Assembly: GCF_013318015.2 (NCBI RefSeq)
Contig: NZ_CP115846.1
Location: forward strand, 62,001 to 126,000
Length of the DNA: 64,000 nucleotides
Origin: Agrobacterium tumefaciens
Lineage (GTDB): Bacteria > Pseudomonadota > Alphaproteobacteria > Rhizobiales > Rhizobiaceae
Direction of reading: 5' to 3'
A program made the translations under genes and the position numbers. This document shows, piece by piece, positions 1,459 to 63,501 of the stretch (its first letter is position 1; each line of letters opens with the position of its first letter). Below the pieces are notes generated by a model. It did not search any database, was not told the DNA's origin, and saw only the letters and a list, made by a program, of their open reading frames with translations.

Positions 1459-2232
1459 GTGTTCAACTCAACTCAGGACCGCCAGGCGAAAATCGTTGAG
1501 CTTTTGCGCGATGAGCAGTTTTTGGCTATCGGCAGATTGACGGAGCACTTCCAGATTTCGGTGGCCACCGCGAGGCGCGACTTGAGCGAACTCCACGAGG
1601 CCGGACTCTTGCGTCGAACTCACGGCGGTGCGGTCAGCGTCACGCAGGTTACACAGGACAAGCCGAACGCTGCCCGCGCCGTCTGGAATCGGGCGGAGAA
1701 GGCGGCCATAGCCGGAGTCGTTGCCGGTATGATCGTCGAGGGTGACACGGTTCTTCTGGACGCCGGTACAACTGCGCTGGAAGTTGCCAAGAAGCTCGCT
1801 GACCGCAGAAACCTCACCTTCATCTCGAATGGTCTCGACATTGTCGAGGAATTGACGAGAGGGGAGGGCAAAAGCATTTATTCGGTCGGGGGCGAGTATA
1901 CCGAAACGAACCGCTCCTTCCGCGGCCCTTTGGCGGAGCAATTTATCCGCCAGTTCAATGTCGACAAACTCATTCTCAACGCGGCGTCGATCGATGTTGA
2001 TCGCGGATTGATCTGTACGTCGTCGCCCGTGAACGCGAGTGTCGCTCGCGCCATGATCGAAGTTTCGAGCCGCGTGATCGTCGTCGCGGATCATTCGAAA
2101 TTCACAAAATCGAGCCTCTCGGTGACGGCCAGGATCGAGGATGTCGGTGTGATCGTCACCGACTCTGGAACCCGAACCATCATTGAGACAATACCGGAAA
2201 AGCTGCGGAAGAAGTTCGTTGTTGCGAACTAG
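1459..2232 (+). CDS. accR: DeoR-family transcriptional repressor of agrocinopine catabolism, AccR
   Basis: The protein (257 residues from GTG 1459; a TTG at 1456 is also possible, with GGAAGGGAAG ahead of both) has an N-terminal DeoR-type winged helix. The recognition region contains FQISVATARRDLSEL, followed by GLLRRTHGGAV. The C-terminal DeoR sensor domain binds phosphosugar-like ligands, with the motif LDAGTTALEVA near residues 95-105. AccR of Ti plasmids represses the acc operon, and on some plasmids the adjacent arc/traR operon, until agrocinopines appear. Here it is the first gene, 57 bp ahead of accA, as in known acc operons. The ligand cannot be read from the sequence. Confidence 0.9.
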   Translation: MFNSTQDRQAKIVELLRDEQFLAIGRLTEHFQISVATARRDLSELHEAGLLRRTHGGAVSVTQVTQDKPNAARAVWNRAEKAAIAGVVAGMIVEGDTVLLDAGTTALEVAKKLADRRNLTFISNGLDIVEELTRGEGKSIYSVGGEYTETNRSFRGPLAEQFIRQFNVDKLILNAASIDVDRGLICTSSPVNASVARAMIEVSSRVIVVADHSKFTKSSLSVTARIEDVGVIVTDSGTRTIIETIPEKLRKKFVVAN

Positions 2233-2289
2233 GTTCGACGGCCGCGCGCGAATTAAAGCCTCATTCAACAGAGCTGGGAGGAAAACCAC

Positions 2290-3855
2290 ATGCTTAAGAC
2301 CAATCGCAGGAATTTTATGATGGGCACCGCGGCGATAGCGGTCGCTTCAACTGCCGGTGCGAAGTTCACCTTCGCGCAAGAACGCCGGGCGCTTCGCCTG
2401 GGTGTGAACGGATTGCCGAACTCGCTGGAGCCGGTCAATGCAATCAGCAATGTCGGCCCGCGTATCGTCAACCAGATATTCGACACGCTGATAGGGCGCG
2501 ATTTTTTCGCGAAGGGAGCTCCCGGCAATGCCATCGACCTCGTTCCGGCACTTGCCGAGAGCTGGGAGCGCATCGATGAGAAATCGGTTCGCTTCAAGCT
2601 GCGGCAGAAGGTCATGTTCCACGATGGTGTTGAACTGACCGCGGACGATGTCGCATACACCTTTTCTTCCGAACGCCTTTGGGGTCCCGAAGCGATCAAG
2701 AAAATCCCGCTTGGGAAATCCTATTCGCTCGATTTCGATGAGCCCGTGGTCGAGGACAAATACACAGTCACACTTCGCACAAAGACCCCGAGCTATCTCA
2801 TCGAGACCTTCGTCGCATCCTGGATGAGCCGCATTGTTCCCAAAGAATACTACAAGAAACTGGGAGCAGTAGATTTCGGTAACAAGCCCGTTGGAACAGG
2901 CCCGTACAAGTTCGTGGAATTTGTTGCCGGCGACCGTGTGGTGCTGGAAGCCAACGACGCCTACTGGGGTCCAAAGCCGACTGCATCGAAGATCACCTAC
3001 CAGATCGTCGCAGAGCCAGCCACACGCGTCGCGGGTCTGATCAGCGGTGAATACGATATCATCACTACCCTGACGCCGGACGACATTCAGCTGATAAATA
3101 GCTATCCGGACCTCGAAACGCGCGGGACGCTCATCGAAAACTTCCACATGTTCACCTTCAATATGAACCAAGAAGTTTTCAAGGATAAGAAGCTTCGGCG
3201 CGCTCTTGCTCTGGCTGTCAACCGGCCAATCATGGTTGAAGCGCTCTGGAAGAAACAAGCATCTATCCCGGCCGGCTTCAATTTCCCGAACTATGGGGAA
3301 ACCTTCGATCCAAAGCGTAAGGCCATGGAATATAATGTCGAGGAGGCCAAGCGTCTCGTCAAGGAGAGCGGCTACGATGGAACGCCGATCACCTATCACA
3401 CGATGGGCAACTATTATGCCAACGCCATGCCTGCGTTGATGATGATGATCGAAATGTGGAAGCAGATCGGTGTGAACGTGGTCATGAAAACCTACGCACC
3501 GGGTAGCTTCCCCCCGGACAACCAGACCTGGATCAGAAACTGGTCCAACGGCCAATGGATGACCGATGCCTACGCCACGATCGTCCCCGAATTCGGGCCG
3601 AATGGTCAGGTTCAAAAGCGTTGGGGTTGGAAGGCGCCGGCCGAGTTCAACGAATTATGTCAGAAGGTCACGGTTCTGCCGAATGGCAAGGAGCGCTTCG
3701 ACGCCTACAATCGCATGCGGGACATTTTCGAAGAGGAGGCGCCAGCCGTCATTCTCTATCAGCCGTATGACGTTTATGCCGCGCGCAAGGATGTCCACTG
3801 GAAGCCCGTGAGCTTCGAGATGATGGAATTCCGCAACAATCTCAGCTTCGGCTGA
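2290..3855 (+). CDS. accA: Agrocinopine periplasmic binding protein, AccA
   Basis: This is a 521-residue solute-binding protein of the oligopeptide/dipeptide class (SBP_bac_5), the usual length. It starts at an ATG with GGGAGGA ahead. The N-terminus TNRRNFMMG followed by a hydrophobic stretch ending in AKFTFAQ is a twin-arginine (Tat) signal, so it is probably exported folded. Family landmarks visible are the early LRLGV segment, ESWE, and VMFHDGVELTADDVAYTF near residue 120. In pTiC58 AccA captures agrocinopines A/B and also lets in the antibiotic agrocin 84. Which agrocinopine is bound here cannot be told. It heads the transporter block accA-accE. Confidence 0.9.
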   Translation: MLKTNRRNFMMGTAAIAVASTAGAKFTFAQERRALRLGVNGLPNSLEPVNAISNVGPRIVNQIFDTLIGRDFFAKGAPGNAIDLVPALAESWERIDEKSVRFKLRQKVMFHDGVELTADDVAYTFSSERLWGPEAIKKIPLGKSYSLDFDEPVVEDKYTVTLRTKTPSYLIETFVASWMSRIVPKEYYKKLGAVDFGNKPVGTGPYKFVEFVAGDRVVLEANDAYWGPKPTASKITYQIVAEPATRVAGLISGEYDIITTLTPDDIQLINSYPDLETRGTLIENFHMFTFNMNQEVFKDKKLRRALALAVNRPIMVEALWKKQASIPAGFNFPNYGETFDPKRKAMEYNVEEAKRLVKESGYDGTPITYHTMGNYYANAMPALMMMIEMWKQIGVNVVMKTYAPGSFPPDNQTWIRNWSNGQWMTDAYATIVPEFGPNGQVQKRWGWKAPAEFNELCQKVTVLPNGKERFDAYNRMRDIFEEEAPAVILYQPYDVYAARKDVHWKPVSFEMMEFRNNLSFG

Positions 3856-3915
3856 ACTCGTTAATCGAGAAGGCGGCGCGCGCGAGGTGTGCGCGTCGCC
3901 CTGGAGGAGCCTAAG

Positions 3916-4854
3916 TTGTCAAATCTACTAACAGTTCGCGACCTGGTCGTTCAGGTGCCGGCGCGCGATATCACAATCATCAACGGTGTCAGTTTTTCAC
4001 TGGATGCAGGGCAGACGCTTGGACTCGTCGGGGAGTCGGGCTGCGGAAAGAGCATGACATGTTACGCAATAGCCAAGGCATTGCCGCGAGGGATTTCGCA
4101 GACGGGCGGAACTATTGAGCTGGACAGTGGACCAAAGGCTGATGGCAAGCCGGCTATTGCCATGATCTATCAGGACCCGACCAGCAGCCTCAATCCGGTT
4201 CATTCGATCGGTTATTATCTCGAGAGCAGCCTTTATCGCCATCAGGGTCTGGAGGGCAACGATGCACGGCTCGAGGCCATGCGTCTTCTCGAACGTGTCG
4301 GTATCGACCGCGCCAAAAGTCGGCTGCGATCCTATCCTCATGAGTTCTCGGGCGGTATGAACCAGCGCGTCATGATTGCCCACGCGCTCGCTGCGAAGCC
4401 TAAGCTGATGATCGCCGACGAGCCCACGACAGCGCTCGATGTCACGACGCAGGCGCAGATCCTTCATCTTCTGGAGGAACTCAGATCTGAAACAGGCATG
4501 GCGCTTTTGATCGTGTCGCACGATCTTGGCGTGATCGCCCGCCTCGCGGATCGTGCGGCGGTCATGTATTGCGGAAAGATCGTCGAAACGGCGCCGGTTG
4601 CGGAATTGTTGGAGCGTGCAGCGCATCCTTACGCTCGCGCCCTGATCGGCTGCATGCCAACGATCGATGCGGACGACCTGGAGCCGCCAGTACCAATCCC
4701 GGGTTCTGTTCCTCTTCTCGATAACCTGCCTGCCGGATGTTATTATCACCCACGCTGTCCCCGCGCGAGCGAACAATGTTCCGTGAGCTTTCCCGGGCCT
4801 GTCAACGTCGGCGCGTTCCACGACGCGGCCTGTTACCATCCGGTGAGCCCATGA
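3916..4854 (+). CDS. accB: Agrocinopine ABC importer, ATP-binding protein AccB (OppD-like)
   Basis: This is an ATPase subunit of an Opp-type importer. A TTG at 3916 preceded by GGAGGAG at 3903-3909 is the best start and gives 312 residues; an upstream GTG at 3889 has no such site. Visible motifs are Walker A GESGCGKS (about 39-46), the signature SGGMNQR, Walker B LMIADEP, and a switch His in IVSHDLG. The C-terminal Cys-rich oligopeptide-transporter tail contains [14 protein letters not shown]. It overlaps accC by ATGA, so the two ATPases are translationally coupled and probably form a heterodimer energising the AccD/AccE pore. Confidence 0.9.
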
Positions 4855-5870
4855 GTGCGCCTCTTCTTCAGGCCCGCGGGGTCACCAAGGTCTTTCGCCT
4901 GAAATCCGGGCTTTTCGTAAAGCCATCGGTACATGTGGCGGTTAATTCAATTGATCTCGAACTTGCGCCGCGTGAGCGGGTAGGTGTCGTCGGTGAATCT
5001 GGGAGCGGGAAATCGACACTCGGTAGACTTCTGCTCGGCTTGACCTCCACCACCGAGGGAGAGGTCTTGTTCGAAGGACTCGCGCACACAGATCGTAGCG
5101 CGCGAGACTGGTCGACGTTCCGAAAGGAGACCTCCCTGGTACAGCAAAACCCGCTGTCCGCCCTTAATCCACAAATGACGATCGGCGAGCAAATCGCTGA
5201 AGCCGTCTGGGTTCACCGGGTTGCCAACCGCGCGGGCGCGCGTGATCGGGCGGCAACCATGCTGGACCGGGTCGGCCTCTCGAGCGCGATGATGAACCGC
5301 TATCCACATCAGATGTCGGGAGGGCAGCGACAAAGAGTTGTTATTGCCCGAGCTTTGATCCTCGACCCCAAATTGGTCGTATTCGATGAGGCGGTATCTG
5401 CGCTCGACGTCTCTGTGCAAGCCCAGGTCGTTGCGTTGCTTCGGCAGCTCTGGCAGGAGCTTGATCTGGCGTATGTGTTCATCACCCACGACCTGCGCAT
5501 CGTTCGCCATCTCGTTGATCGTATTGTCGTGATGTATCTTGGCCGCGTCGTCGAAACCGGCGATATCAAATCTGTCTATGCGTGGCCACGCCATCCCTAT
5601 ACCCGCGCATTGCTTGCCTCCGTCCCCACTATGGACCCGACGGTCCGCAATATTGAACCACCGATCAAGGGGGAACTCGACGCTGGCAAGGTAATGACTG
5701 GCTGTGCCTTCCGGTCACGCTGTCCTTTTGCAATCGAAAGATGTGCGAAAGAAACGCCGCTGCTTCGGCCTGCGGGTGGGCAACTGGCAGCGTGCCATAG
5801 AGCGGAAGAGTTTCCGAGATCTATAGTCGCGCAGACTGATCCGGCGCAGATGATGGAGGTGGCGCGATGA
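4851..5870 (+). CDS. accC: Agrocinopine ABC importer, ATP-binding protein AccC (OppF-like)
   Basis: Second ATPase of the importer, 339 residues from the ATG that overlaps the accB stop. Walker A is GESGSGKS (about 48-55), signature SGGQRQR and Walker B LVVFDEAVS, with Ala where most relatives have Pro after DE. The His switch is in FITHDLR. A C-terminal tail with CAFRSRCPFAIERC matches the oligopeptide-transporter extension in AccB. The gene overlaps accD by 4 bp. It should pair with AccB at the inner membrane under AccD and AccE. Confidence 0.9.
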   Translation: MSAPLLQARGVTKVFRLKSGLFVKPSVHVAVNSIDLELAPRERVGVVGESGSGKSTLGRLLLGLTSTTEGEVLFEGLAHTDRSARDWSTFRKETSLVQQNPLSALNPQMTIGEQIAEAVWVHRVANRAGARDRAATMLDRVGLSSAMMNRYPHQMSGGQRQRVVIARALILDPKLVVFDEAVSALDVSVQAQVVALLRQLWQELDLAYVFITHDLRIVRHLVDRIVVMYLGRVVETGDIKSVYAWPRHPYTRALLASVPTMDPTVRNIEPPIKGELDAGKVMTGCAFRSRCPFAIERCAKETPLLRPAGGQLAACHRAEEFPRSIVAQTDPAQMMEVAR

Positions 5871-6793
5871 TTAGTTTCATCCTTGCACGCCTCGTTCGAG
5901 CGATCATTGTCATGATGCTGACCGTGACGTTTGTCTTCATCATTCTCAGGTTGGGTGGAGATCCAGCTCGGGCCATGTTGGGCGAGAACGCGACGCCAGA
6001 GGCGCTGGCAGCATTCCGAACAGCATGGGGCCTGGACAGATCCATTCCTGAACAGTTCCTGATCTATCTCGCCAGCGCGCTCAGAGGCGACTTCGGGGTA
6101 TCGGCAGCCGACGGTCGTGAGGTATTCACCGTCATCGCCGAACGTATACCCAAGACATTGACGCTGACGATTTCAGCATTCGTGCTAAGCATACTCGTCG
6201 GTATCCCCGCGGGAATCATCGCAGCAGTCCGCCGCGACAGTGCCGCCGACAAATCCGTCATGGCAGGCGCTGTTCTCGGCTATAGCGTACCAAATTTCTT
6301 GCTCGGACTGACGCTCATCTTCGTGTTTGCCGTCTGGTTTCGTGTGCTGCCGAGCTCGGGAAGTTCCACCTGGCAGCATGCGATCCTGCCCGTTGCGACA
6401 TTCGGTCTTGTCAATGCGGCTGCGATTGCGCGCTTTGCACGTTCCGCGCTGATCGAAGTTCTGGAACAGCCCTATATCGCAGCGGCTCGCGCCGATGGTA
6501 TTCCCAAGTGGGAAGTGGTTATCCGCCACGCGCTCCCGAACGCGGCGATCCCGATGGTGACCATGCTGGGTTTCGTTGCAGCTGGCTTGCTGGGGGGGTC
6601 GGCTATCGTAGAGACCGTATTCGCCTGGCCCGGGCTTGGTAGCGGTTTTGTTCGAGCAATCACGCTCAGCGATCTCAATGTCGTTCAGGCAATGATCCTT
6701 CTCTTCACGGCGTTCATGGTCACGATCAACTTGATCGTCGATGTTCTCTATGCGGTGCTGAACCCGAAAATCAGGCTTCAAAAAAATGGCTAG
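5867..6793 (+). CDS. accD: Agrocinopine ABC importer, permease AccD (OppB-like)
   Basis: This 308-residue inner-membrane permease is of the OppB/DppB class. The first transmembrane helix (about 7-28) is followed by the family motif RLGGDPARAMLGENATPEA. The cytoplasmic EAA loop lies near residues 200-225 (ARADGIPKWEVVIRHALPNA). About six membrane segments are expected and visible. It overlaps accC at its start and accE by 8 bp at its end, so the five transporter genes form one tightly coupled unit. Substrate specificity is inferred from context. Confidence 0.9.
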   Translation: MISFILARLVRAIIVMMLTVTFVFIILRLGGDPARAMLGENATPEALAAFRTAWGLDRSIPEQFLIYLASALRGDFGVSAADGREVFTVIAERIPKTLTLTISAFVLSILVGIPAGIIAAVRRDSAADKSVMAGAVLGYSVPNFLLGLTLIFVFAVWFRVLPSSGSSTWQHAILPVATFGLVNAAAIARFARSALIEVLEQPYIAAARADGIPKWEVVIRHALPNAAIPMVTMLGFVAAGLLGGSAIVETVFAWPGLGSGFVRAITLSDLNVVQAMILLFTAFMVTINLIVDVLYAVLNPKIRLQKNG

Positions 6794-7646
6794 TACGACA
6801 CTCTCATTACCAAAGCGGCAATTCCTGAAATCTGCCCGCCGCATTCCGATCAGTATCTGGCTATGCCTGATCTGGATTGCGGTTGTCGTCTTCGTGGGCA
6901 TGACGGCGCAATGGTTGGCACCGTTCGACTATCTGCAGCAGTCACCTCTGGCGCGATTTGCGCCGACGGGTGCGCCGGGACATTTGCTGGGAACTGATTA
7001 TCTCGGTCGTGACGTGCTCAGCAACATTCTGGTCGCTACCCAGACGTCTTTGATGATCGCTCTTGTCGGTTCTCTCATCTGCGCGTTCATCGGTACGACC
7101 CTCGGATTTCTTGCGGCACATTTCGGTGGCTGGGTCGACAATCTCATTATGGGCTTCGCAGACGCGAAGGCTTCCGTGCCCTTTATAATCTTCGCGCTTG
7201 GTGTCCTGGCGTTTCTCGGGTCAAGCCCGCTGATACTTCTTATGCTCGTTGGTGTCGCATCATTCGAGCGTTATGCGCGGCTGACGCGTGGCCTCGTCTT
7301 GAGTGCGAACCAGGAGGGATATGCGGAGGCGGCGCGCATCGTCGGCGTACCATCGCTTCGGATCTATGTGCGCCACGTCCTTCCAAACATTGCTGGACCG
7401 CTCATCGTTCAAATCACCCTGAATTTCCCGGATATCATCCTGCTCGAAAGCGGATTGAGCTTCCTTGGGCTTGGGATCCAACCGCCGGAAACGAGCCTTG
7501 GGCTGATGGTCGCAGACGGCAGAAACTATATCGCGATTGCCTGGTGGCTCATCGCGTTGCCCGGCGTTGTTATTGTTCTCACCACCCTGTCCATCAGCCT
7601 GCTCGGCGACTACTTGCGCGATCGCTTCGACGCGCGCCTGCGATAA
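6786..7646 (+). CDS. accE: Agrocinopine ABC importer, permease AccE (OppC-like)
   Basis: This 286-residue permease is of the OppC/DppC class and the partner of AccD. After a first membrane helix near 25-45 it has the class motif HLLGTDYLGRDVLSN, then alternating helices and the EAA loop EAARIVGVPSLRIYVRHVLPN near residues 180-200. The C-terminus LGDYLRDRFDARLR is typical of OppC proteins. It starts inside the end of accD and is followed after 9 bp by accF, so import and cleavage genes are co-transcribed. Confidence 0.9.
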   Translation: MASTTLSLPKRQFLKSARRIPISIWLCLIWIAVVVFVGMTAQWLAPFDYLQQSPLARFAPTGAPGHLLGTDYLGRDVLSNILVATQTSLMIALVGSLICAFIGTTLGFLAAHFGGWVDNLIMGFADAKASVPFIIFALGVLAFLGSSPLILLMLVGVASFERYARLTRGLVLSANQEGYAEAARIVGVPSLRIYVRHVLPNIAGPLIVQITLNFPDIILLESGLSFLGLGIQPPETSLGLMVADGRNYIAIAWWLIALPGVVIVLTTLSISLLGDYLRDRFDARLR

Positions 7647-11634: not shown

Positions 11635-11898
11635 TGCTCACCGATGTCGTCGACGCTTATCGGCGAGCTTCGGCCGCCACGACTGCACGATATTCGTCAC
11701 ACGGCGGCCGTGCACCGGGTGATTGCCTGGTATCGCTCCGGTCAAGACGTGCAACGGTTGCTCCCGCAACTCGCAACCTACCTTGGCCACATCGATATAC
11801 GTTCAACGCAGCGCTATTTGCACATGACGCCGGATCTCCTCGATGCAGCCAGCCAGCGCTTTGCGCAGTGTGCAATGGGGGCCGACCATGAAGGATGA
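11631..11898 (+). pseudogene. Deleted and frameshifted second recombinase of the decayed RIT element
   Basis: The frame starts as MMLTDVVDAYRRA at 11631, then jumps register to RPPRLHDIRHTAAVH, LATYLGHIDIRSTQRYLH and MTPDLLDAASQ, ending at TGA 11898. About 200 codons of the middle are missing compared with the intact second recombinase at 57756-58670. The conserved Arg (first catalytic box) is therefore lost, while HDIRH and LGH-Y remain. It overlaps the next recombinase gene. Confidence 0.65.
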
Positions 11899-12814
11899 GA
11901 GCCTCCTTGGTCCCTGGATCCGTCGTTTCCTGTTGGAGCATTTGGTCGCCGAACGCAATCTTTCTCGCAACACCCAAGCCAGCTACCGCGACACGCTGAC
12001 GCCGGCAATCGTCCGCAAATTCCTGGACCATCTGGAACTTGATCGCCGATGCAGCGAAGTAACCCGTAACCAACGGCTTGCGACCATTCATTCACTGGCA
12101 CGCTTCATCGGCATGCGTTCGCCGGTCCACCTGGCCTGGTGTTCCGAGATAAGGGCAATCCCATTCAAGAAGACGGCAAAGGCCGCGATCGGCTATCTCG
12201 AAAAGGCCGAGATGGATGCGCTCCTCGATCAACCCGACAGGCGTACAAATCTTGGGGTGCGCGACCATGCTCTGCTTTTATTCTTGTACAACAGTGGCGC
12301 GTGCGCCGATGAGGCAGCAAAATTGACGATCGGCAATCTTCAGCTGGGCGCGTCTCCGTCAGTGCGCCTTCGTGGCAAGGGAAACAAGATCCGGATCTGC
12401 CCATTGTGGCCGGCGACGGCGATATCGCTGGCTCGCCTCGTGACCGATCGGGATAGGAGCGATGCAGTCTTTCTGGGGCGAATGAAGGAACCTTTGACAC
12501 GGTTCGGAATACACCGCGTCGTGACGCAATATGCCGCTACGGCGAGCAAAACCGTGCCGACTCTGGCCACGAAGCGCGTCAGCCCCCATACCATTCGGCA
12601 CACGACAGCCGTCCACCTCCTGCGTGCGGGCGTTGATATCAACACGATCCGCGCGTGGCTGGGCCATGTGTCGTTGGACACCACACACATCTACGCCGAG
12701 GTAGATCTGGAAATGAAGGCCAAGGCGTTGGCCAAGGTGGATATCAGCGGCTTGACAGAGCCCCCACGGCCACGATCCCTGCCGTCCTTGATGGCATTCC
12801 TGAAAGGGTTGTAG
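11888..12814 (+). pseudogene. Third recombinase of the decayed RIT element, probably inactive
   Basis: An open frame of 308 codons from ATG 11888 encodes a tyrosine recombinase: HTIRHTTAVHLL and LGHVSLDTTHIYAE are intact. Two defects suggest inactivity. The N-terminal SAM-like domain jumps from SYRDTL to TPAIVRKFL, about 30 residues shorter than relatives. The first catalytic box reads NSGACADEAA where relatives have GAR-x-x-E, so the catalytic Arg appears replaced by Cys. It follows two truncated recombinases in the same order as the complete trio at 56.5 kb. Confidence 0.65.
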
Positions 12815-55939: not shown

Positions 55940-56328
55940 ATGGAGAGTACATTGGAGTTTCTCACAACCAGGAAGTCTGGACGTGAGATTCACCGGCATT
56001 GGCCGGACGAGGTCAAGGCGCAGATCGTTTCGGAAAGCTTGAGACCTGGCGCGCGATGGTGAATGAGGGCGCCGAGCGCTATGGATTGCGGGCGAACCGC
56101 CTTTCGACTTGGCGAACGATGGCGCGGCAGGGCAAGCTTGTTCTACCTGCACCCGATGACCCAGTGGAGTTCGCAGCGGTAGTCATCGATCCACCCGTTG
56201 CGGAGCCGCTGATCAATAAAACTAGCCGCCCTGAGATCATCGTCGGCGCTGTCACCATCCGCCTGGAAGAAGGTGCGTCTGCCGCCCGCATTGCCGCTAT
56301 TGCGCGTGCCTGCGCGGTTCCGGCATGA
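55940..56328 (+). pseudogene. tnpA: Frameshifted IS66-family tnpA (left copy)
   Basis: ATG 55940 opens MESTLEFLTTRKSGREIHRH, WPDEVKAQIVSESLRPGA, the helix-turn-helix start of IS66 TnpA. The frame then breaks and continues in another register as VNEGAERYGLRANRLSTWRTMAR and EIIVGAVTIRLEEGASAARI, ending at 56328. The break is a 1- or 2-nt change near 56052. The tnpB start overlaps its end (ATG at 56325), the usual IS66 arrangement. Confidence 0.75.
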
Positions 56329-56384
56329 TCTTTCCGTCGAACCGCGTACGGATCATGGTCGCGAGCAAGCCGGTCGACTTCCGT
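56325..56384 (+). pseudogene. tnpB: First 20 codons of IS66-family tnpB (left copy), cut by the RIT element
   Basis: The sequence MIFPSNRVRIMVASKPVDFR matches the conserved start of IS66 TnpB (where DMRKGFDGLA or DFRKG follows). It stops exactly after codon 20 at the left terminus of the RIT element. A different tnpB on the right side of the element is cut after the same codon. Confidence 0.8.
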
Positions 56385-56422
56385 AATTATGCGGCGATGA
56401 TAATTATGCAGAGTCGATGACG
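56385..56422 (+). repeat. Left inverted terminus of the RIT element
   Basis: Begins AATTATGCGGCGATGAT and repeats AATTATGC 17 bp in, followed by GAGTCGATGACG. The right terminus at 62345-62382 is its inverted copy with one difference (GCAGAG versus GCGGAG). The internal 17-bp period suggests two recombinase-binding half-sites. Confidence 0.85.
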
Positions 56423-56532
56423 CAATTCTATAGATTATGTATTCATTATAGCTGCTTAGTTAAAATGCGCAGGCGCGGTCGCTCCACATAATATGCTCCC
56501 TCACGATGGGTTCACCCTGTGAGGAGAGTAAC

Positions 56533-57762
56533 ATGGATGCCAATAGTCGTAATCACCGGTTCCTCGATCCCGGCCCTTTGTCGTCATGGATCGATCGGTT
56601 CGCAGATGAGCTTGCCGCTCAGAGGTATACGCCGCTGACCATTGAAGGCTACACGGCCTCGGCTCGTCATTTCGCAGCTTGGCTTGATAAATCGGGGATC
56701 TCGATGGACGTCATCGATGGTGATGTCGTTCGTCGCTTTGCCGAACATCGCTGTCGATGTGCCGGTGGGCGACAGTGGCTGCGGGTCTCGCCAAAATACT
56801 CTCGCCGTGCCGGGAGGTTCGTTGTTTTCCTGCAAGGGGCAGGTGTCGTATGTCCACCCCCGAAGATCGCGTCGCCATATCCCCTGCTTGACGGCTATCA
56901 GAGCTGGTTGCGCGTCCACCGAGGACTGTCGGAACGAACGATCACCCGTCACCTTCGCGACCTCCATAAGCTCTTGCCGGTGCTCGGCGCGGCGACCCTC
57001 GACTATGATGCCGCCCTGATCCGTAACGTTGTCCGGGAGTGGCGCGAGCGAACCGGGCCAGCTAATCTGAGGACCATAACAAGCGCCTTGCGCAGCTATC
57101 TCCGCTACCTCGCGGGTGCCAGCTTGTGCCGTCCCAACCTCGATCACGCCATTCCCCCGGTCTTGCAGTGGCGCCTTTCATCGTTGCCGCGGTATCTTGC
57201 AGCCACCGAGGTTGAAAGCGTCATTGCATCCTGCGATCAACTCAGCAGAGGCCAACTGCGGGACCGGGCAATCCTGCTTCTATTAGCTCGTCTTGGACTG
57301 CGGGCCGGGGATGTGGCCGGACTCAGGCTCGACGACATCGAATGGACGTCAGGTATGCTGCGCCTAAGTGGCAAAGCGCGCCGGCAAGTTCGGCTGCCAT
57401 TACCGCAGGACGTCGGTGATGCACTTCTCGCATACATCGAGCAGGAACGGCCGCGCGTGCCTCAAGAGGCGGTCTTTCTTACAATGATTGCTCCCTTCCG
57501 GTCATTTTCACAGTCCAGTCATGTCTCCACGATCGTAGCGCTGGCGCTAAAACGTGCGGGCATTTCAGATCCCCCGTCGTCGGGAGCGTGCTTGCTGCGC
57601 CACTCGGCGGCAACCTCGATGCTCCGCGCGGGGGCCACACTCGAAGCTGTTGGCACGGTGCTGCGTCACCGTTCGATCGATATGACCGCACATTACGCTA
57701 AGGTCGATGTCGCGATGCTGGAGCAGGTTGCCCAGCCTTGGCCGGGAGAGCTCCCATGCTGA
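56533..57762 (+). CDS. Tyrosine recombinase, first of RIT trio
   Basis: The 409-residue recombinase starts at ATG 56533 behind GAGGAGAG; an upstream in-frame ATG has no such site. An N-terminal SAM-like domain (TPLTIEGYTASARHFAAWL) and a second core-binding region lead to the catalytic domain with Arg in LLLARLGLRAGDVAGL, the box ACLLRHSAATSML and Tyr in MTAHYAKVD. In the second box, Cys stands where His is usual (H-x-x-R), which may weaken it. Overlaps the next gene by ATG-TGA. Confidence 0.85.
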   Translation: MDANSRNHRFLDPGPLSSWIDRFADELAAQRYTPLTIEGYTASARHFAAWLDKSGISMDVIDGDVVRRFAEHRCRCAGGRQWLRVSPKYSRRAGRFVVFLQGAGVVCPPPKIASPYPLLDGYQSWLRVHRGLSERTITRHLRDLHKLLPVLGAATLDYDAALIRNVVREWRERTGPANLRTITSALRSYLRYLAGASLCRPNLDHAIPPVLQWRLSSLPRYLAATEVESVIASCDQLSRGQLRDRAILLLLARLGLRAGDVAGLRLDDIEWTSGMLRLSGKARRQVRLPLPQDVGDALLAYIEQERPRVPQEAVFLTMIAPFRSFSQSSHVSTIVALALKRAGISDPPSSGACLLRHSAATSMLRAGATLEAVGTVLRHRSIDMTAHYAKVDVAMLEQVAQPWPGELPC

Positions 57763-58670
57763 GTCAGCTCCTCGCCGACCATGCGGCGCTGCATCAAGCC
57801 CTGGGATTCAAGTTTAGGACCCCAGGCATTCTCCTGCGCAACTTCGTCACCTTTGCCGAGCATCGCGGTGAGCATTTTATAACGACAGCAACCGTGCATG
57901 AGTGGGCGCTACAGGCGCCTTCACGCGAACAACGTCGCAACCGCCTATTGGCGGTCCGTCGCTTCGCGCTCTCGCTGCATGCCGAAGATTCGCGCCACGA
58001 AGTTCCCTCCGCTGATCTTTTCGGCCGCGCAACTCGCAATCGCCGCACGCCCTACATTTATAGTCCCGGGGAGATCCGACAGCTGATAGACGACGCTCAG
58101 CGACTTGGCCCTGACGGTTCAATCAGGCCGCTCACCTACGCCACGATGTTCGGGCTGATTGCCGCGACGGGCATGCGTGTTTCGGAGGCGATCGCCATTC
58201 GATTGCCGGATGTGACCGACGATGGGTTGATCATCGCCCAGACCAAGTTCAAGAAGAGCCGGTTGCTGCCGCTCCACCCGACCACCCGACGCGCTTTGGA
58301 CGGATACCTCGCCACTCGCCTGAAGGCAGCAAGTCAGAGCGATGCGCTTTTCATATCGCATCAGGGAACGCCGCTCGCTTATCCGACAGTGATAACGGTC
58401 TTCTTGCAGATTATGCGATCGATCGGGTTGCGAGGGGCTGCAGGATCGCGAGGGCCGCGGATTCACGATCTTCGCCACACGTTCGCCGTCCGCTCTCTCG
58501 AACACTGTGCGCACGATTCCCAGGCGGTCGCGCAGCATATCACCGCACTCAGTACCTATCTGGGGCACGCCCATGTAACCGATACTTACTGGTATCTCCA
58601 GTCAACGCCGGAGCTGATGACGCATATGTCGGCAGCCGGCGAGACATTGCATCGAGGAGTGACGGCATGA
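57756..58670 (+). CDS. Tyrosine recombinase, second of RIT trio
   Basis: The 304-residue protein starts at ATG 57756, inside the end of the first gene. Catalytic boxes are complete: GLIAATGMRVSEAIAI (Arg), HDLRHTFAVRSL (His-x-x-Arg) and LGHAHVTDTYWYLQST (His and nucleophile Tyr). The N-terminal part is short, as in second recombinases of RIT elements. It overlaps the third gene by ATGA. Confidence 0.87.
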   Translation: MLSQLLADHAALHQALGFKFRTPGILLRNFVTFAEHRGEHFITTATVHEWALQAPSREQRRNRLLAVRRFALSLHAEDSRHEVPSADLFGRATRNRRTPYIYSPGEIRQLIDDAQRLGPDGSIRPLTYATMFGLIAATGMRVSEAIAIRLPDVTDDGLIIAQTKFKKSRLLPLHPTTRRALDGYLATRLKAASQSDALFISHQGTPLAYPTVITVFLQIMRSIGLRGAAGSRGPRIHDLRHTFAVRSLEHCAHDSQAVAQHITALSTYLGHAHVTDTYWYLQSTPELMTHMSAAGETLHRGVTA

Positions 58671-59554
58671 CCCAACTTGCCCAGCACCTCACCGCCTTCC
58701 TGCGCGAACATCTTCCCCGGGAACGACGTGCAAGCGTTCACACTTGCGATGCCTATGCCTATAGCTTCCAGCTGCTGGTGACGTTTGCCGCGCGACGATT
58801 GAGCAAGCGACCGTGTCTGCTGCAGATCGAAGATTTCGACGTACCGATGATCCTCACCTTTCTCGAACACATCGAAGAAACGCGTGGCAACAAGGCCCGT
58901 TCGCGCAACGCCAGGCTGGCGGCCGTGAAGTCCTTCTTCCGCTATCTCGAGCATCGCGTACCCGCAGTGCTGGATCAGGCCTTTAGGGTGCACGCTATTC
59001 CGATGAAGAAGATTGACGAGGCGCTCGTGGCTTCGCTTTCGCGTGCCGAAGTGCAAGCGCTGCTTAGTGCACCGGATCGGCGGTCATTATCAGGCATTCG
59101 GGATCGAGCCATGCTGCATCTGGCTTTCGCCGGCGGGCTGCGCGTTTCCGAACTCGTTGGACTCACCCTCGACCAGTTCGACGGACGGTCACCCGCTAGC
59201 ATCCATATCATCGGCAAAGGACGTCGAGAGCGCGTGCTACCGCTCTGGCATGAGACTGCAGCCGCGATCCGCGCCTGGATCGCGGTCAGACCCAAGAATG
59301 GCGACACGGCGCTCTTCCTGAACAACGCTGGTAGGATGATGACCCGCTCCGGTTTCGAATACATCCTCGAAAAGCACGCCACCGCCGCCGTCAGCGTCGC
59401 GCCCACGTTGGCGACGAAGTCGATATCGCCACATGTCCTGCGCCATAGCTGCGCAATGCACATGCTTCAGGCGACGCGCGACATTCGCAAAGTAGCGCTG
59501 TGGCTGGGTCACGCCACTCTCCAGAGCACGGAGATCTACCTGCGAGCTGACCCG
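58667..59554 (+). pseudogene. Tyrosine recombinase, third of RIT trio, interrupted by IS21
   Basis: The first 296 codons are intact and contain all catalytic boxes: AFAGGLRVSELVGL, HVLRHSCAMHML and LGHATLQSTEIYLRADP. The gene then runs into the IS21 element, which replaces the natural end by a short alternative tail that stops at 59614. The natural end lies at 62188-62289. Joined, the protein is 329 residues. Because the active-site Tyr precedes the insertion, the truncated form might still fold. Confidence 0.85.
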
Positions 59555-59660
59555 TGCGTATTTCGGGAGAACGGGACAGTCGTTTCAGTAAATCGCGGAC
59601 AGTGGTTTCACTAATTCCGGGACAGCATGATGTGGTCGATTTTCGCCTGCCTGGTTGAAG

Positions 59661-60437
59661 TCATGAGAGATTGATTTCTCCGTTTTCAGCGCCGGTCAAG
59701 TGGGATGGTGTTTTTTGCCGTCGCATGCTGTCGCCTTCAAGGGCAATGCGGTGCGCATTGTGGATGATCCGATCGAGGATTGCGTCTGCTATTGTCGGTT
59801 CTCCTATCATGTCGTGCCACTGGGCGACGGGAAGCTGCGCGGTGATGAGCGTCGATTTCCGGCGATAGCGTTCCTCGAAGATTTCCAACAAGTCGAGGCG
59901 CTGTTGATCGGTGAGCGTGTGCGTTCCCCAGTCGTCGAGGATCAGCAACGGGACGCGGGCGAGTTTATCGACCAGCCGTGGAAAGCGACCGTCGAGCCTG
60001 GCAAGGCTAAGGTCTTCGAACAGACGCGGCATGCGCAGATACAGGATGGAATGATCGAGCCGGGCAGCTTGGCGACCGAAGGCGCAGGCAAGCCAGGTTT
60101 TTCCCGTGCCGGTCTGGCCTGTGATGATCATATTCTCATGCGCCTTCAGCCATGCCCCTTGCGCAAGCGACAAAGTGTTGCGGCGGTCGAGACCACGATG
60201 AGCGGCAAAGTCGATGTTCTCGATGCAGGCATCGGGAAAGCGGAGCTTTGAAGCTGCAAGCCGGTTGGTCAGGCGCTTGTCGGATCGCAGAGCCGTTTCC
60301 CGATCAAGCATCAGGCCAAGCCACTCGTCACGGCTGAGATCGCTGCTGTTGTTCTGAGCGGCAAGTTCGCGATAGGCCGTTGCCATTCCGGCAAGGCCAA
60401 GGGCCTGCATCTGTTCAAGAGTTGGATGTGTCAGCAT
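59661..60437 (-). CDS. istB: IS21 transposition helper ATPase IstB
   Basis: The 258-residue AAA+ ATPase starts [15 protein letters not shown] at ATG 60437 behind GGAAAAGGAAAG; a GTG 21 bp upstream overlaps the istA stop and is less likely. Walker A is [15 protein letters not shown], Walker [11 protein letters not shown], and the C-terminal segment [17 protein letters not shown] matches the family. It is related to DnaC and assists IstA in target capture. Confidence 0.9.
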
Positions 60438-60454
60438 GGGTCTTTCCTTTTCCT

Positions 60455-62008
60455 TCACTGGTAATAGGAGCCACCGCGGATGTTGGTGTGCGGCGGGGTG
60501 GGTTTTGCCGAATCGATCTGGGGTTTGGTCCGATCGAGACCGGATTTGAGAATGGCGGCGACAGAGGAATAGGTGATGGAGTTTATGACCAGCGCCCGCT
60601 CACAAGCCGCTTCCAGGCGATCCGTCTCATAACGGCGGGCAAGGGACAGAATGCCGAAAGCCGAGCGATATCCCTGTTCGGGATGAGGACGATCGCGCAT
60701 CACCCGCTCGACCAGAATGGCAGTGTTCACCCCGATCCTTGCGGCTTGGTTCAAAAGTGATGCCGGCGTCGTGTTGGCATAACGCTGGTGGGATTTGGGC
60801 ATGTGCTCGTTGATTGTGACATGCCCGGATCGCTGAGAACGCCTGATATGGCTGGCAATCCGCTTGTGATCGAGGAATATCTCGACCACCCGATGGGTAA
60901 GACGCACATCAACTTGTCGGCCGATCAAGCGATGCGGCACAGAGTAGAATGTCTTGTCGACTTCGACGTGGTAATCGGGATGGACCTTTGCCGATTTCCA
61001 TTCCGCATAGTCGAATGGCGTCGCTGGCAGCGGCGCAAGCGCCTTTCTCTCCACCTCCTCGAACAGATCTCGGCGCGACTTGCCGATATGGCGCATCGGG
61101 CGGTTGTTCAAGTCGTCAAGCAGAACCGAGATCGCGGCGTTTAGATCAGACACGCTGAAGAAGCGCCGGTTTCTGAGGCGAGCCAGTATCCAACGCTCGA
61201 CGATCAGCACGGCGCCTTCGACCTTGGCTTTGTCACGCGGCTTGCGGCTTCTGGTCGGCAGGATGGTCGTATCATAATGTTCGGCCATGGCAGCGAAGGT
61301 GGCGTTGAGCGTGGGCTCGAACCACAGAGCCTTGGCAACGCCTGCCTTCAGATTGTCGCACACGATCGCCTTCGGGACGCCGCCGAAGAAGCTCAGTGCG
61401 CGTTCCTGACCCTCGATCCAGTCCGGCAGTTTCTGGCTGAAGCTGGCATAAGCGAATGTCAGTGACGAGGCGGGAAGCATCGCCACGAAGATTTGCGCAG
61501 AGTGGATGACGCCGGTCGAAGGGTCGGTGATGGGGATGGTGTGGCCGGCGTAATCCGTCTGCATCACCGCGCCCGCCTCATGGCGGTTGCGGAAGGTTGC
61601 GTGAGCGCGGCGTTCGAAGGCGGCAAAACGGTCGCAGAACCATGTGTAGCCGTAGCCGTCGGGATGGCTCGCCCTGTATTCCTGCCACAGCAGCGTCAGC
61701 GTCACACCCTTGCGCTTCAGCTCGGCAGAAACGGACCGCCAATCCGGCTCGACCAGGTCTTGTGGCGGTCGACCAACCCGCCGGAAGAGATGTCGCTCCA
61801 GCGCGGCATCGTCATCGAGACCCGCAGGTAACGGCCAGACCGAAAGGCCGGTCTCCTTCGCTCGCAGCAGATACGTCGCCACAGAGGTTTTGCTGATCTT
61901 CAGGCGTTCCGAAACGGCGCGAACCGAAAGGCCCTGTTCATGCGTCAGCCGCAGTATCGATCGAATGTCTTTCACTGTCGTTCGTCTCGCTTGCTTCCGT
62001 CTTGGCAT
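60455..62008 (-). CDS. istA: IS21 transposase IstA
   Basis: The 517-residue transposase starts [16 protein letters not shown] at ATG 62008 (an in-frame start 30 bp upstream also exists). A helix-turn-helix ([21 protein letters not shown]) precedes the DDE domain: Asp in [13 protein letters not shown], Asp in [11 protein letters not shown] and Glu in [14 protein letters not shown]. The C-terminal beta-domain follows. Full length, overlapping the extended istB frame by four bases. Confidence 0.9.
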
Positions 62009-62187
62009 GGCCCCTCTCAACCGATGATGAGGAGGCAATCTGCCAGAACGGCGCTTGCGAAAATCGACCTAAATCTGCATCCGAGACTGTCTCGGAATTA
62101 GCGGAATCGCTGTCCCGTATTTACTGAAATCGCTGTCCGCGAATTACCGGAAGCGCTGTCCCGAGATTAGTGAAACACGCAGACCCG

Positions 62188-62289
62188 ACCGAAAAACTCG
62201 AGATGCTCAACGCTTTGGTGCCACTCGGCATCAAGCCAGGCAAATTCCGCCCGCCGGATAAACTGATCGCGATGCTTGCCACGCGATAG
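62188..62289 (+). pseudogene. 3' end of the third RIT recombinase gene, separated by IS21
   Basis: With the duplicated GACCCG restored, the frame continues DP-TEKLEMLNALVPLGIKPGKF and PPDKLIAMLATR to TAG 62287, a normal ending for third RIT recombinases. The reading frame is preserved exactly across the IS21 insertion (296 codons before, 33 after). Confidence 0.85.
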
Positions 62290-62344
62290 CGCATAGTTAT
62301 GTGGAGCCGATGGATGTCAAGAAGTCGCCCAAGGCGTCCATCGA

Positions 62345-62382
62345 CGTCATCGACTCCGCATAATTATCATCGCCGCATAATT
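62345..62382 (-). repeat. Right inverted terminus of the RIT element
   Basis: Inverted copy of 56385-56422 (37 of 38 bases). It abuts, without spacer, the end of codon 20 of the minus-strand tnpB at 62383-62442. Confidence 0.85.
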
Positions 62383-62442
62383 GCGCATGTCCGTATAGCC
62401 CGTGGCCAGCCAGACCTTCACACCACTCGGAACCGGGATCAT
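62383..62442 (-). pseudogene. tnpB: First 20 codons of IS66-family tnpB (right copy), cut by the RIT element
   Basis: The sequence MIPVPSGVKVWLATGYTDMR is the classic IS66 TnpB start; it ends after codon 20 at the RIT terminus. It differs clearly from the left copy (MIFPSNRVRIMVASKPVDFR), so the two flanks come from different IS66 elements, in opposite orientation. Confidence 0.85.
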
Positions 62443-62846
62443 CGCAGACCCAATACGCAATCGAGAATCCGGCCAAGCGCGTCCGTGTCGATGTCGCTTT
62501 CCACGCGGACACGCCGACCCCGACCTAGTTCGATTGTTACATCACTGCGCTTCCGACGAGGAAGGAATTTGGTGGGTGGTTCCGGCTGAGCGGGGGAGAC
62601 TGTCGAAGCGGCCTCGGACACGATTACCGGCACCAAAGCCGCAGTGTCAGATCTTGGCTCCTCGATCCGACAAAGCTCTTTGCGCCAACGGAACAACTGG
62701 CTGACATGGATGCCGGCCGCGCGGGCAATCTCGGAGATGACCGCGTCTGGCTCAAAGCACGCAGCGACGAGCCGCTCTTTATCTTCGCGTGACCAACGCC
62801 GACGGCGCTCCACAGACGTGATCACCTCAATTGGATGCTTCGCCAT
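62439..62846 (-). CDS. tnpA: IS66-family accessory protein TnpA
   Basis: The 135-residue protein starts MAKHPIEVITSVERRRRWSR at ATG 62846. Its helix-turn-helix (DAVISEIARAAGIHVSQLFRWRKEL) and the conserved end VTIELGRGRRVRVESDID are typical of IS66 TnpA (OrfA). The stop overlaps the tnpB start. The frame is intact although the element is not. Confidence 0.85.
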   Translation of the reverse strand: MAKHPIEVITSVERRRRWSREDKERLVAACFEPDAVISEIARAAGIHVSQLFRWRKELCRIEEPRSDTAALVPVIVSEAASTVSPAQPEPPTKFLPRRKRSDVTIELGRGRRVRVESDIDTDALGRILDCVLGLR

Positions 62847-62924
62847 ATGACTACTCCTAGTGTTACCACTAGGACTGGCAGTCAGCAGGCCGTCATCGCA
62901 AGACGGCCTTCACCGTGGGCTTAC

Positions 62925-63501
62925 ATTCCAGGTAGGCGTGGCTGAAGTCGATCAGGGCTACGACATCCGGATGATTGACGGCTTTCACCGTTGCGGCAAC
63001 TTCGGCCGGAGTCTGACGATACTGGCCCGGCTCCGTTGTGAAAATATTCTCAAAGGCGATGCGAATACCGTACGCTTTGGCATGCTCGCCCGATTCGAGC
63101 AGCGCTTCGCATTGACGCTCGTCAGCGCCGGCGCGTTGAGCGATCTGATCGGCGCGCAGAAAGCCCGCGTGCTGGACGAGAACGCGGGCGTCGATGCTGT
63201 CGCAAATCTCGACCCGTGCCTTTGCAGCATCGACCTGGTGCCGGCGCGTTGCCGGGTCCATGAAGTTCGAGGACACGAGGCCGTGCACGGTATAGCGGAA
63301 GGAAAACGTCTCAAGAAGGGTTCTGAGCCGATCGGCACGCTCTTTGACGATGCGGCCACCTGCGATCAGATCGAGGCTGGAAAGGGCGAGTTCGACCGTG
63401 TCGACGCCGATTGCCTCAAGGCGGCGCAGCTCTCTCTCGAGGCTGTCAAGCTCGCCGTCCGTCGATGCCGTATTGAAGCCCGTTGCGATAATATTGTTCA
63501 T
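62925..63501 (-). pseudogene. Sugar phosphate isomerase/epimerase-like TIM barrel, 3' end removed by IS66
   Basis: From ATG 63501 (MNNIIATGFNTASTDGELDS) the frame encodes a xylose-isomerase-like TIM-barrel protein. Metal-ligand motifs typical of the family are visible: VELALSS, VHGLVSSNF, VLVQHAGFL, IAFENIFTT and LIDFSHAYLEC. After about 192 residues it passes into the IS66 end and stops 31 bp later, so some 80 C-terminal residues are missing. Substrate unknown. The NUDIX relic lies 24 bp upstream on the same strand. Confidence 0.75.

Follow-up and report, generated by a model that had tools for sequence, protein, structure and literature searches.

A recombinase-in-trio element between two IS66 tnpB genes on a Ti-type plasmid of Agrobacterium tumefaciens, compared with the attachment sites of its relatives

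For recombinase-in-trio (RIT) elements, insertion into transposase genes has been described before. The element ritA1B1C1 of Cupriavidus metallidurans CH34 inactivates a tnpA gene of the IS66 family (PMC2864759). A RIT in a transposase gene was reported in PMC3414803, which also describes a 28-9 bp inverted repeat with an overlapping palindrome and overlaps of 4-8 bp between the RIT genes. Two core-binding domains are known for RitA (PMC8138268). How the three recombinases share the work is a question raised in PMC3414803, and in Table 1 of a 2023 article the target specificity, the empty site and the movement of RITs are still entered as not tested (PMC10214605). In the present work a RIT element of Agrobacterium tumefaciens was compared with its relatives. 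It lies in a window, i.e. a stretch of 64,000 nucleotides, corresponding to positions 62,001 to 126,000 of contig NZ_CP115846.1 (assembly GCF_013318015.2). The comparison makes it quite probable that elements of this clade integrate site-specifically at an Arg-Lys codon pair of the IS66 gene tnpB (D-[FM]-R-K-G, cut between R and K), that they use a circle with twin attachment (att) sites, and that the form in the window arose by recombination. The window lies on contig C6, 206 kb long, of a genome of 6.0 Mb in six contigs. From the list of open reading frames, its genes are presumably those of a Ti plasmid-type vir region; in pTiC58, the corresponding stretch carries annotations for virE2 and for a gene under virA/G control.

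The RIT occupies positions 56385-62382, its ritC being interrupted by an IS21 insertion, and abuts two different IS66 tnpB genes with the same terminus. At the left junction, 56325-56384 (+ strand) encodes MIFPSNRVRIMVASKPVDFR, the first 20 codons of tnpB of the copy termed IS66-a, ending in D-F-R, and the terminus AATTATGCGGCGATG... starts at 56385. Read inverted, the right junction has the first 20 codons of tnpB of IS66-b at 62442-62383 (- strand), encoding MIPVPSGVKVWLATGYTDMR and ending in D-M-R, and the same terminus starts at 62382. The first-pass annotation of this DNA had described this arrangement, with both flanks exactly 60 nt from the ATG of tnpB; its junction coordinates proved exact, and 60 nt were measured on each side. 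The edge of the element is ambiguous by 2 nt, AA being common to element and target. Since the 700-bp flanks gave no blastn match to each other, the window does not hold one duplicated site, as had also been proposed from the differing IS66 copies. On the left, ORF1 of IS66-a (55999..56328, +) belongs to a truncated IS66 remnant with the same sequence in two RIT-free plasmids, pTiC58 (L094) and the Ti plasmid of strain Sta004 (L093). On the right, ORF1 of IS66-b (HTH_Tnp_1; 62439..62846, -) follows; the 5' part of this copy extends over 62383..62924 (-) as far as its left end GTAAGCCCACGG, and Ti plasmid sequence resumes at 62925.

Relatives were gathered from plasmid records (matches chosen from the top of the list and for diversity), representative genomes (24 loci) and further genomes, and the clade was defined by at least 60% identity of RitB. 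An end directly adjoining the tnpB 5' half was termed attL, an end with a palindrome followed by the tnpB 3' half attR. With a terminus model 63 sources were searched. The terminus was found in 45 and not found in 18, mostly distant lineages, but also L043, L078 and L079. After the duplicates L016, L038, L076 and L077 had been dropped, 71 of the 79 ends were left, comprising 36 attL, 28 attR and seven other ends. All 36 attL ends followed D-F-R (16) or D-M-R (20). Among the seven others, the two of L034 had no flank and that of L098 belongs to a more distant lineage, leaving four; L078, L079 and L095 contributed three further attL and two attR ends. In total, 69 of 73 readable non-duplicate ends of the clade were located at the same position of tnpB: 39 at the 5' part directly after D-F-R or D-M-R, 30 at the palindrome and the 3' part, and four elsewhere. 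In the representative genomes, which were chosen without regard to target, all 21 loci with a readable flank were inserted in tnpB; of the remaining three, L034 and L043 had no usable flank and L051 was not a relative. The 37 attL flanks, two of them duplicates, were grouped into no more than 31 clusters (90% identity over 250 bp); for L029 the flank comprised 75 nt, and the Sinorhizobium meliloti loci L019, L021 and L026 probably represent a single lineage. The first-pass annotation had suggested a specific attachment site at D-[FM]-R of IS66 tnpB. This is strongly supported, and by this comparison its reality can be regarded as established. Mapping of RIT flanks across relatives revealed neither scattered positions nor unrelated flanks, except for four ends beside IS91-type elements. 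The cut after codon 20 holds in the window, but not for relatives with a shorter N-terminus of TnpB, where it follows codon 18 (L013, L022, L033, L095, L096; range across relatives 18-20). The constant feature is the D-[FM]-R motif with its Arg-Lys codon pair, not the codon number.

The four exceptional ends come from S. meliloti and B. elkanii and lack the usual tnpB flank. Two kinds of flank were observed, one in L019, L021 and L027 (near 3001) and another in L103 (near 6497). In L027 and L103, annotated genes for an IS91-family transposase and an integrase lie at 0.1-0.4 kb from the end, and the flank of L019 matches the records of L021 and L027 as well as other plasmids.

For a number of loci that are divergent or rearranged, the ends called by an automatic repeat finder were false; its ends for L018, L021, L026, L027, L042-L044, L046, L047, L066, L068, L069, L076, L081, L083, L085-L087, L098, L101 and L102 were left out of the results. 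Joined flanks of L075, L079 and L084 were unusable and those of L088 uncertain (no Pfam match); the counts are independent of these joins.

When flanks were joined outside the core, i.e. the short motif at the presumed point of exchange, a TnpB of 114-118 amino acids was restored in 16 of 21 loci. A shorter or no product resulted for L017, L020, L029, L042 and L096. The joined flanks of L014 and L040, the two that were checked, match PF05717, and copies of IS66-b with an intact tnpB are present elsewhere; the interrupted gene is IS66 tnpB. A natural empty site was identified as well. pTiC58 and the Sta004 plasmid read GACTTCCGTAAAGG, where the window has GACTTCCGTAATTATG. The left flank was matched by 178 plasmid records, 82 of them with at least 99% identity at the best place, and the empty site was read in two. 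For IS66-b, the closest other copies match up to 62924 and read D-M-R-K-G through an intact site. As IS66-a is a truncated remnant, what the RIT requires is the site in the DNA; a functional IS66 is not necessary.

In the window, the attL core CCGTAA (56381..56386, +) is identical to the empty site CCGTAAAGG of L093 and L094, and the second attL core is GCGCAA (62381..62386, -), with GCGCAAG or GCGCAAA in intact copies of IS66-b. Among the relatives, the attL and attR cores of all 21 joined loci consist of six nucleotides, N + Arg codon + AA. Around three intact copies of IS66, such a core by itself was counted 44-55 times in 3.5 kb; therefore the recombinases must read more than the core. Over 19 joined sites the conserved letters are GAYWT-BMGNAA-RGG, plus GANGG further on; this conservation could result largely from coding constraint alone.

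The ends of the 26 standard two-ended loci are uniform. One end consists of the tnpB 5' half, the core and a terminus resembling TTATGCGG (26/26). At the other end, the terminus is followed by an inverted core, a palindrome of about 20 bp resembling TTATGTGGWGCWCCACATAA, a second core and the tnpB 3' half (26/26). The internal, inverted core also reads N + Arg codon + AA in 20 of 21 loci; that of L017 is one base short. The rit genes point in the same direction as tnpB in 17 loci and in the opposite direction in eight (unknown for L050), and whatever their direction the palindrome was found on the tnpB 3' side in all 26. This fixed side would also be expected if the palindrome resided in some tnpB genes and was targeted by the RIT, the target determining the side. 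We consider this very improbable. The palindrome was absent from the intact tnpB sites read. It was detected in five of 397 genomes of the order, all five beside RIT-type termini, and attR in three of 384 genomes of the family, all three being RITs already in the sample; in the two scans all eight places of the palindrome were at RIT-type ends, and reversed-pattern controls gave none. Furthermore, RITs inserted in different target genes have palindromes of a different sequence (L080, L097, L099, L100).

The origin of the two cores was examined by their first letter. At attL it is compatible with the codon of the target (Phe TTY or Met ATG) in 37 of 37 cases. At attR it cannot be native in eight (L017, L022, L023, L029, L033, L036, L037, L039) of 25 loci, i.e. 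the 21 joined loci and L012, L049, L078 and L079. The difference in misfit (Fisher p = 3e-4) is indicative only, the sequences being related. It thus seems that after the exchange the core of the host remains at attL, and that the element brings a core to attR. The attR core may simply be part of the element. Copying of a donor core exactly as in Tn554 or the SE elements is not claimed, as in many loci the core at attR and the internal one are the same.

Two subtypes have cores with other last letters. The core of L044 is GCGCCG. L045 (3400-3440) combines the core GCGCTG with a target that reads TGTGGC, giving Cys in place of Lys if the frame is the usual one; it looks as though the cores of element and target had changed in concert. 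In L050, a metagenome contig, a normal attL and attR lie 1.66 kb apart (1538-3197) without a full ritB; possibly this is an internally deleted, non-autonomous derivative.

By comparison of the loci, the fixed site, the core, the restoration of tnpB, the anatomy of attL and attR, and both orientations with a fixed side of the palindrome can be taken as demonstrated. From the anatomy of the ends, the inverted internal site corresponds to a copy of what attL and attR would form on a circle. The mobile form would hence be a circle with two head-to-head att sites flanking the palindrome at its joint. Either site could recombine with tnpB, which would explain why both rit orientations occur while the palindrome keeps its side. 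The exchange would be resolved near the AA of the core, so that the core of the host stays at attL and that of the element at attR. This twin-att model appears well supported, though unproven.

The RIT in the window now joins two tnpB 5' halves. Both 3' halves and the Ti plasmid DNA between them are gone, and the palindrome, present after one end in standard relatives, is absent from both ends. In L093 and L094 the sequence of the window from 62925 resumes 505 bp after the left empty site. IS66-b would therefore have inserted beside the old IS66-a remnant, pointing at it, which placed two tnpB copies inverted to each other. The RIT may then have been located in one of the two copies on the Ti plasmid. 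Recombination across, through either its internal att site or a second RIT located in the opposite tnpB, would have removed the palindrome, the 3' halves of the two tnpB copies and the intervening Ti plasmid DNA, leaving two attL-type ends. At some time IS21 would have entered ritC.

For a single insertion, the internal att site of the RIT would have recombined with the second, inverted tnpB. Because the two sites would be in direct orientation, this route deletes exactly the missing DNA; we give it an even chance. The route via separate RITs in each tnpB, pointing in the same direction on the plasmid, is in our view slightly less probable. Homologous recombination between them would have deleted the interval and left two attL ends, again a product that lacks the palindrome. 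The rit genes are found in both orientations. Moreover, L035 carries the mirror form with two attR ends, its tnpB 3' halves being 89% alike over 245 nt, and this form would be the natural partner product of an exchange between two RITs. However, one more insertion is required, L035 is a short metagenome contig (4339 bp) that is possibly misassembled, and a second RIT of the clade was not found in the own genome, which has one. The recombination between two separate insertions assumed in the first-pass annotation is hence possible, but it is not required, as an internal att site and a single insertion could suffice.

A second RIT with two attL ends was observed in L044 of Acidiphilium (3631-7015), its two IS66 flanks being 87% alike over 577 nt. 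Being repeats, both RITs and IS66 can be misjoined, and the structure in the window could be explained by a chimera of the assembly. This is highly unlikely: the same arrangement is present in this other organism, the six-contig genome has one copy of this RIT, and searches for the palindrome and for tnpB gave no trace of the missing 3' halves. In the own genome, the palindrome, expected as the reciprocal product, was not found within two mismatches, and the tnpB search gave two matches, both complete and on another contig.

Several points weigh against a site-specific integration via a twin-att circle and the origin of the window form by recombination. L043 (RitB 64%) is a member of the clade that yielded no end. 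The activity of the internal att site is deduced from its sequence and the two orientations, and movement, circle and recombination are all deduced by comparison. An orphan palindrome between two tnpB 3' halves, the predicted by-product of the single-insertion route, was found at none of the eight places of the palindrome. Of 242 plasmid records none covers 80% of the right flank, so that the IS66-b junction without RIT was not found among them, and in a search of 39 genomes of the genus this junction is spanned by no match except those in the own genome; the direct parent is missing. In addition, the copy in the window is probably not self-sufficient now, since its ritC is cut by IS21.

After subtraction of IS21 and one repeat copy the RIT has a length of about 3365 bp, compared to about 3.3-3.4 kb for relatives with clear ends. 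The genes ritA (56533..57762, +), ritB (57756..58670, +) and ritC are adjacent and in the same direction, with overlaps of 7 bp between ritA and ritB and of 4 bp (ATGA) between ritB and ritC. Profile matches identify the products as tyrosine recombinases, PF00589 being found in RitA, RitB and the 5' part of RitC. RitA also matches PF02899 at 119-194 above the cut-off and PF13495/PF13102 at about 19-72 below it (SAM-like/core-binding domains). The 5' part of ritC (58667..59554, +) is separated from its 3' part (62182..62289, +) by the IS21-family element (59555..62181, -) with an istA-like gene (60455-62038) and istB (59661-60458). A 6-bp duplication, GACCCG, was read by eye on both sides of it. 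Copies of this element, 94.6% alike, occur on Rhizobium leguminosarum plasmids. The left terminal inverted repeat (56385..56422, +) contains two TTATGC repeats 17 nt apart, the right one is located at 62345..62382 (-), and the termini form a 47-nt inverted repeat with 91% complementarity. The first 15 nt of the terminus have two exact matches in the window; shuffled versions gave 0.28 matches on average with up to two mismatches, and four of 100 reached two.

More distant RITs (RitB 44-50%) show the same plan, with terminal repeats and a palindrome of other letters at one end, in different targets. L080, L097 and L100 are inserted in similar genes, and the joined product of L080 matches the strawberry-notch helicase families PF13871/PF13872. 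L099 lies in a ParB-like gene (match below the cut-off). L052-L056, known from their termini alone, have a further kind of terminus beside a gene, and the piece of this gene in L052 matches DUF736. Several distant loci without clear ends were excluded from the counts. Each RIT lineage seems to be bound to a single coding motif of mobile or plasmid DNA. It is an open bet, with equal odds, that RITs in general are site-specific, with a symmetrical double att circle that allows insertion in either orientation, inversion in place and joining of targets, and with one mobile-gene motif per lineage (IS66 tnpB, DUF736, strawberry-notch-type helicase, ParB-like). If so, one RIT could join two separate targets and delete or bridge the DNA between them.

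Two remnants of distant RITs were observed on the plasmid of the window. One has a ritB end and a ritC-like gene (window 11671-12766), the other a ritA fragment, a split ritB and a ritC-like gene (contig C6 17552-19837; L089 7553-9838). Their ritB and ritC parts have 34-46% identity.

With a defined attB (GAYWT-BMGNAA-RGG in tnpB), a predicted twin-site attP and natural pairs of empty and filled sites, the reaction is directly testable. Furthermore, a small cargo-free element nested in an insertion sequence can reshape the edge of the virulence region of a Ti plasmid.

Compared to other systems, three integrase-type genes and a target preference are shared with the elements of PMC5385486 (see also PMC10214605). 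These need a fourth gene for recombination, and IS66 does not appear in the accessible text of PMC5385486. The SE and Tn554-like elements share tyrosine recombinases, a preferred target and a 6-bp footprint, and the SEs inverted repeats around a 6-bp spacer (PMC10214605). Like the SE and Tn554-like elements, this RIT clade has inverted repeats separated by a 6-bp spacer, and at one end the spacer carries letters that do not belong to the target. They differ in their protein sets, IntA-Tfp-IntB-Srap or TnpA-TnpB-TnpC, which were not found between the ends in the window; the genes there are ritA, ritB, ritC and those of IS21. According to the accessible text, SEs are larger, carry cargo and do not generate an empty site, and neither a second, inverted att site with palindrome nor insertion in both orientations is mentioned there for SE or Tn554-like elements (PMC10214605). 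In the open-licence literature, which excludes the main RIT papers Van Houdt 2009 and Ricker 2013, no statement was found that gives the site to the codon, its core or the pair of att sites. Known RITs share with the element in the window, as far as their accessible descriptions go, three adjacent tyrosine recombinase genes with short overlaps, a length of about 3.4 kb and terminal inverted repeats; exact codon, core, empty site and an explanation of the palindrome are absent from the accessible descriptions in PMC2864759 and PMC3414803. Thus, insertion of a RIT into IS66 is already in print; the exact site and the anatomy of the att sites were not found in this literature, and the anatomy is new here.

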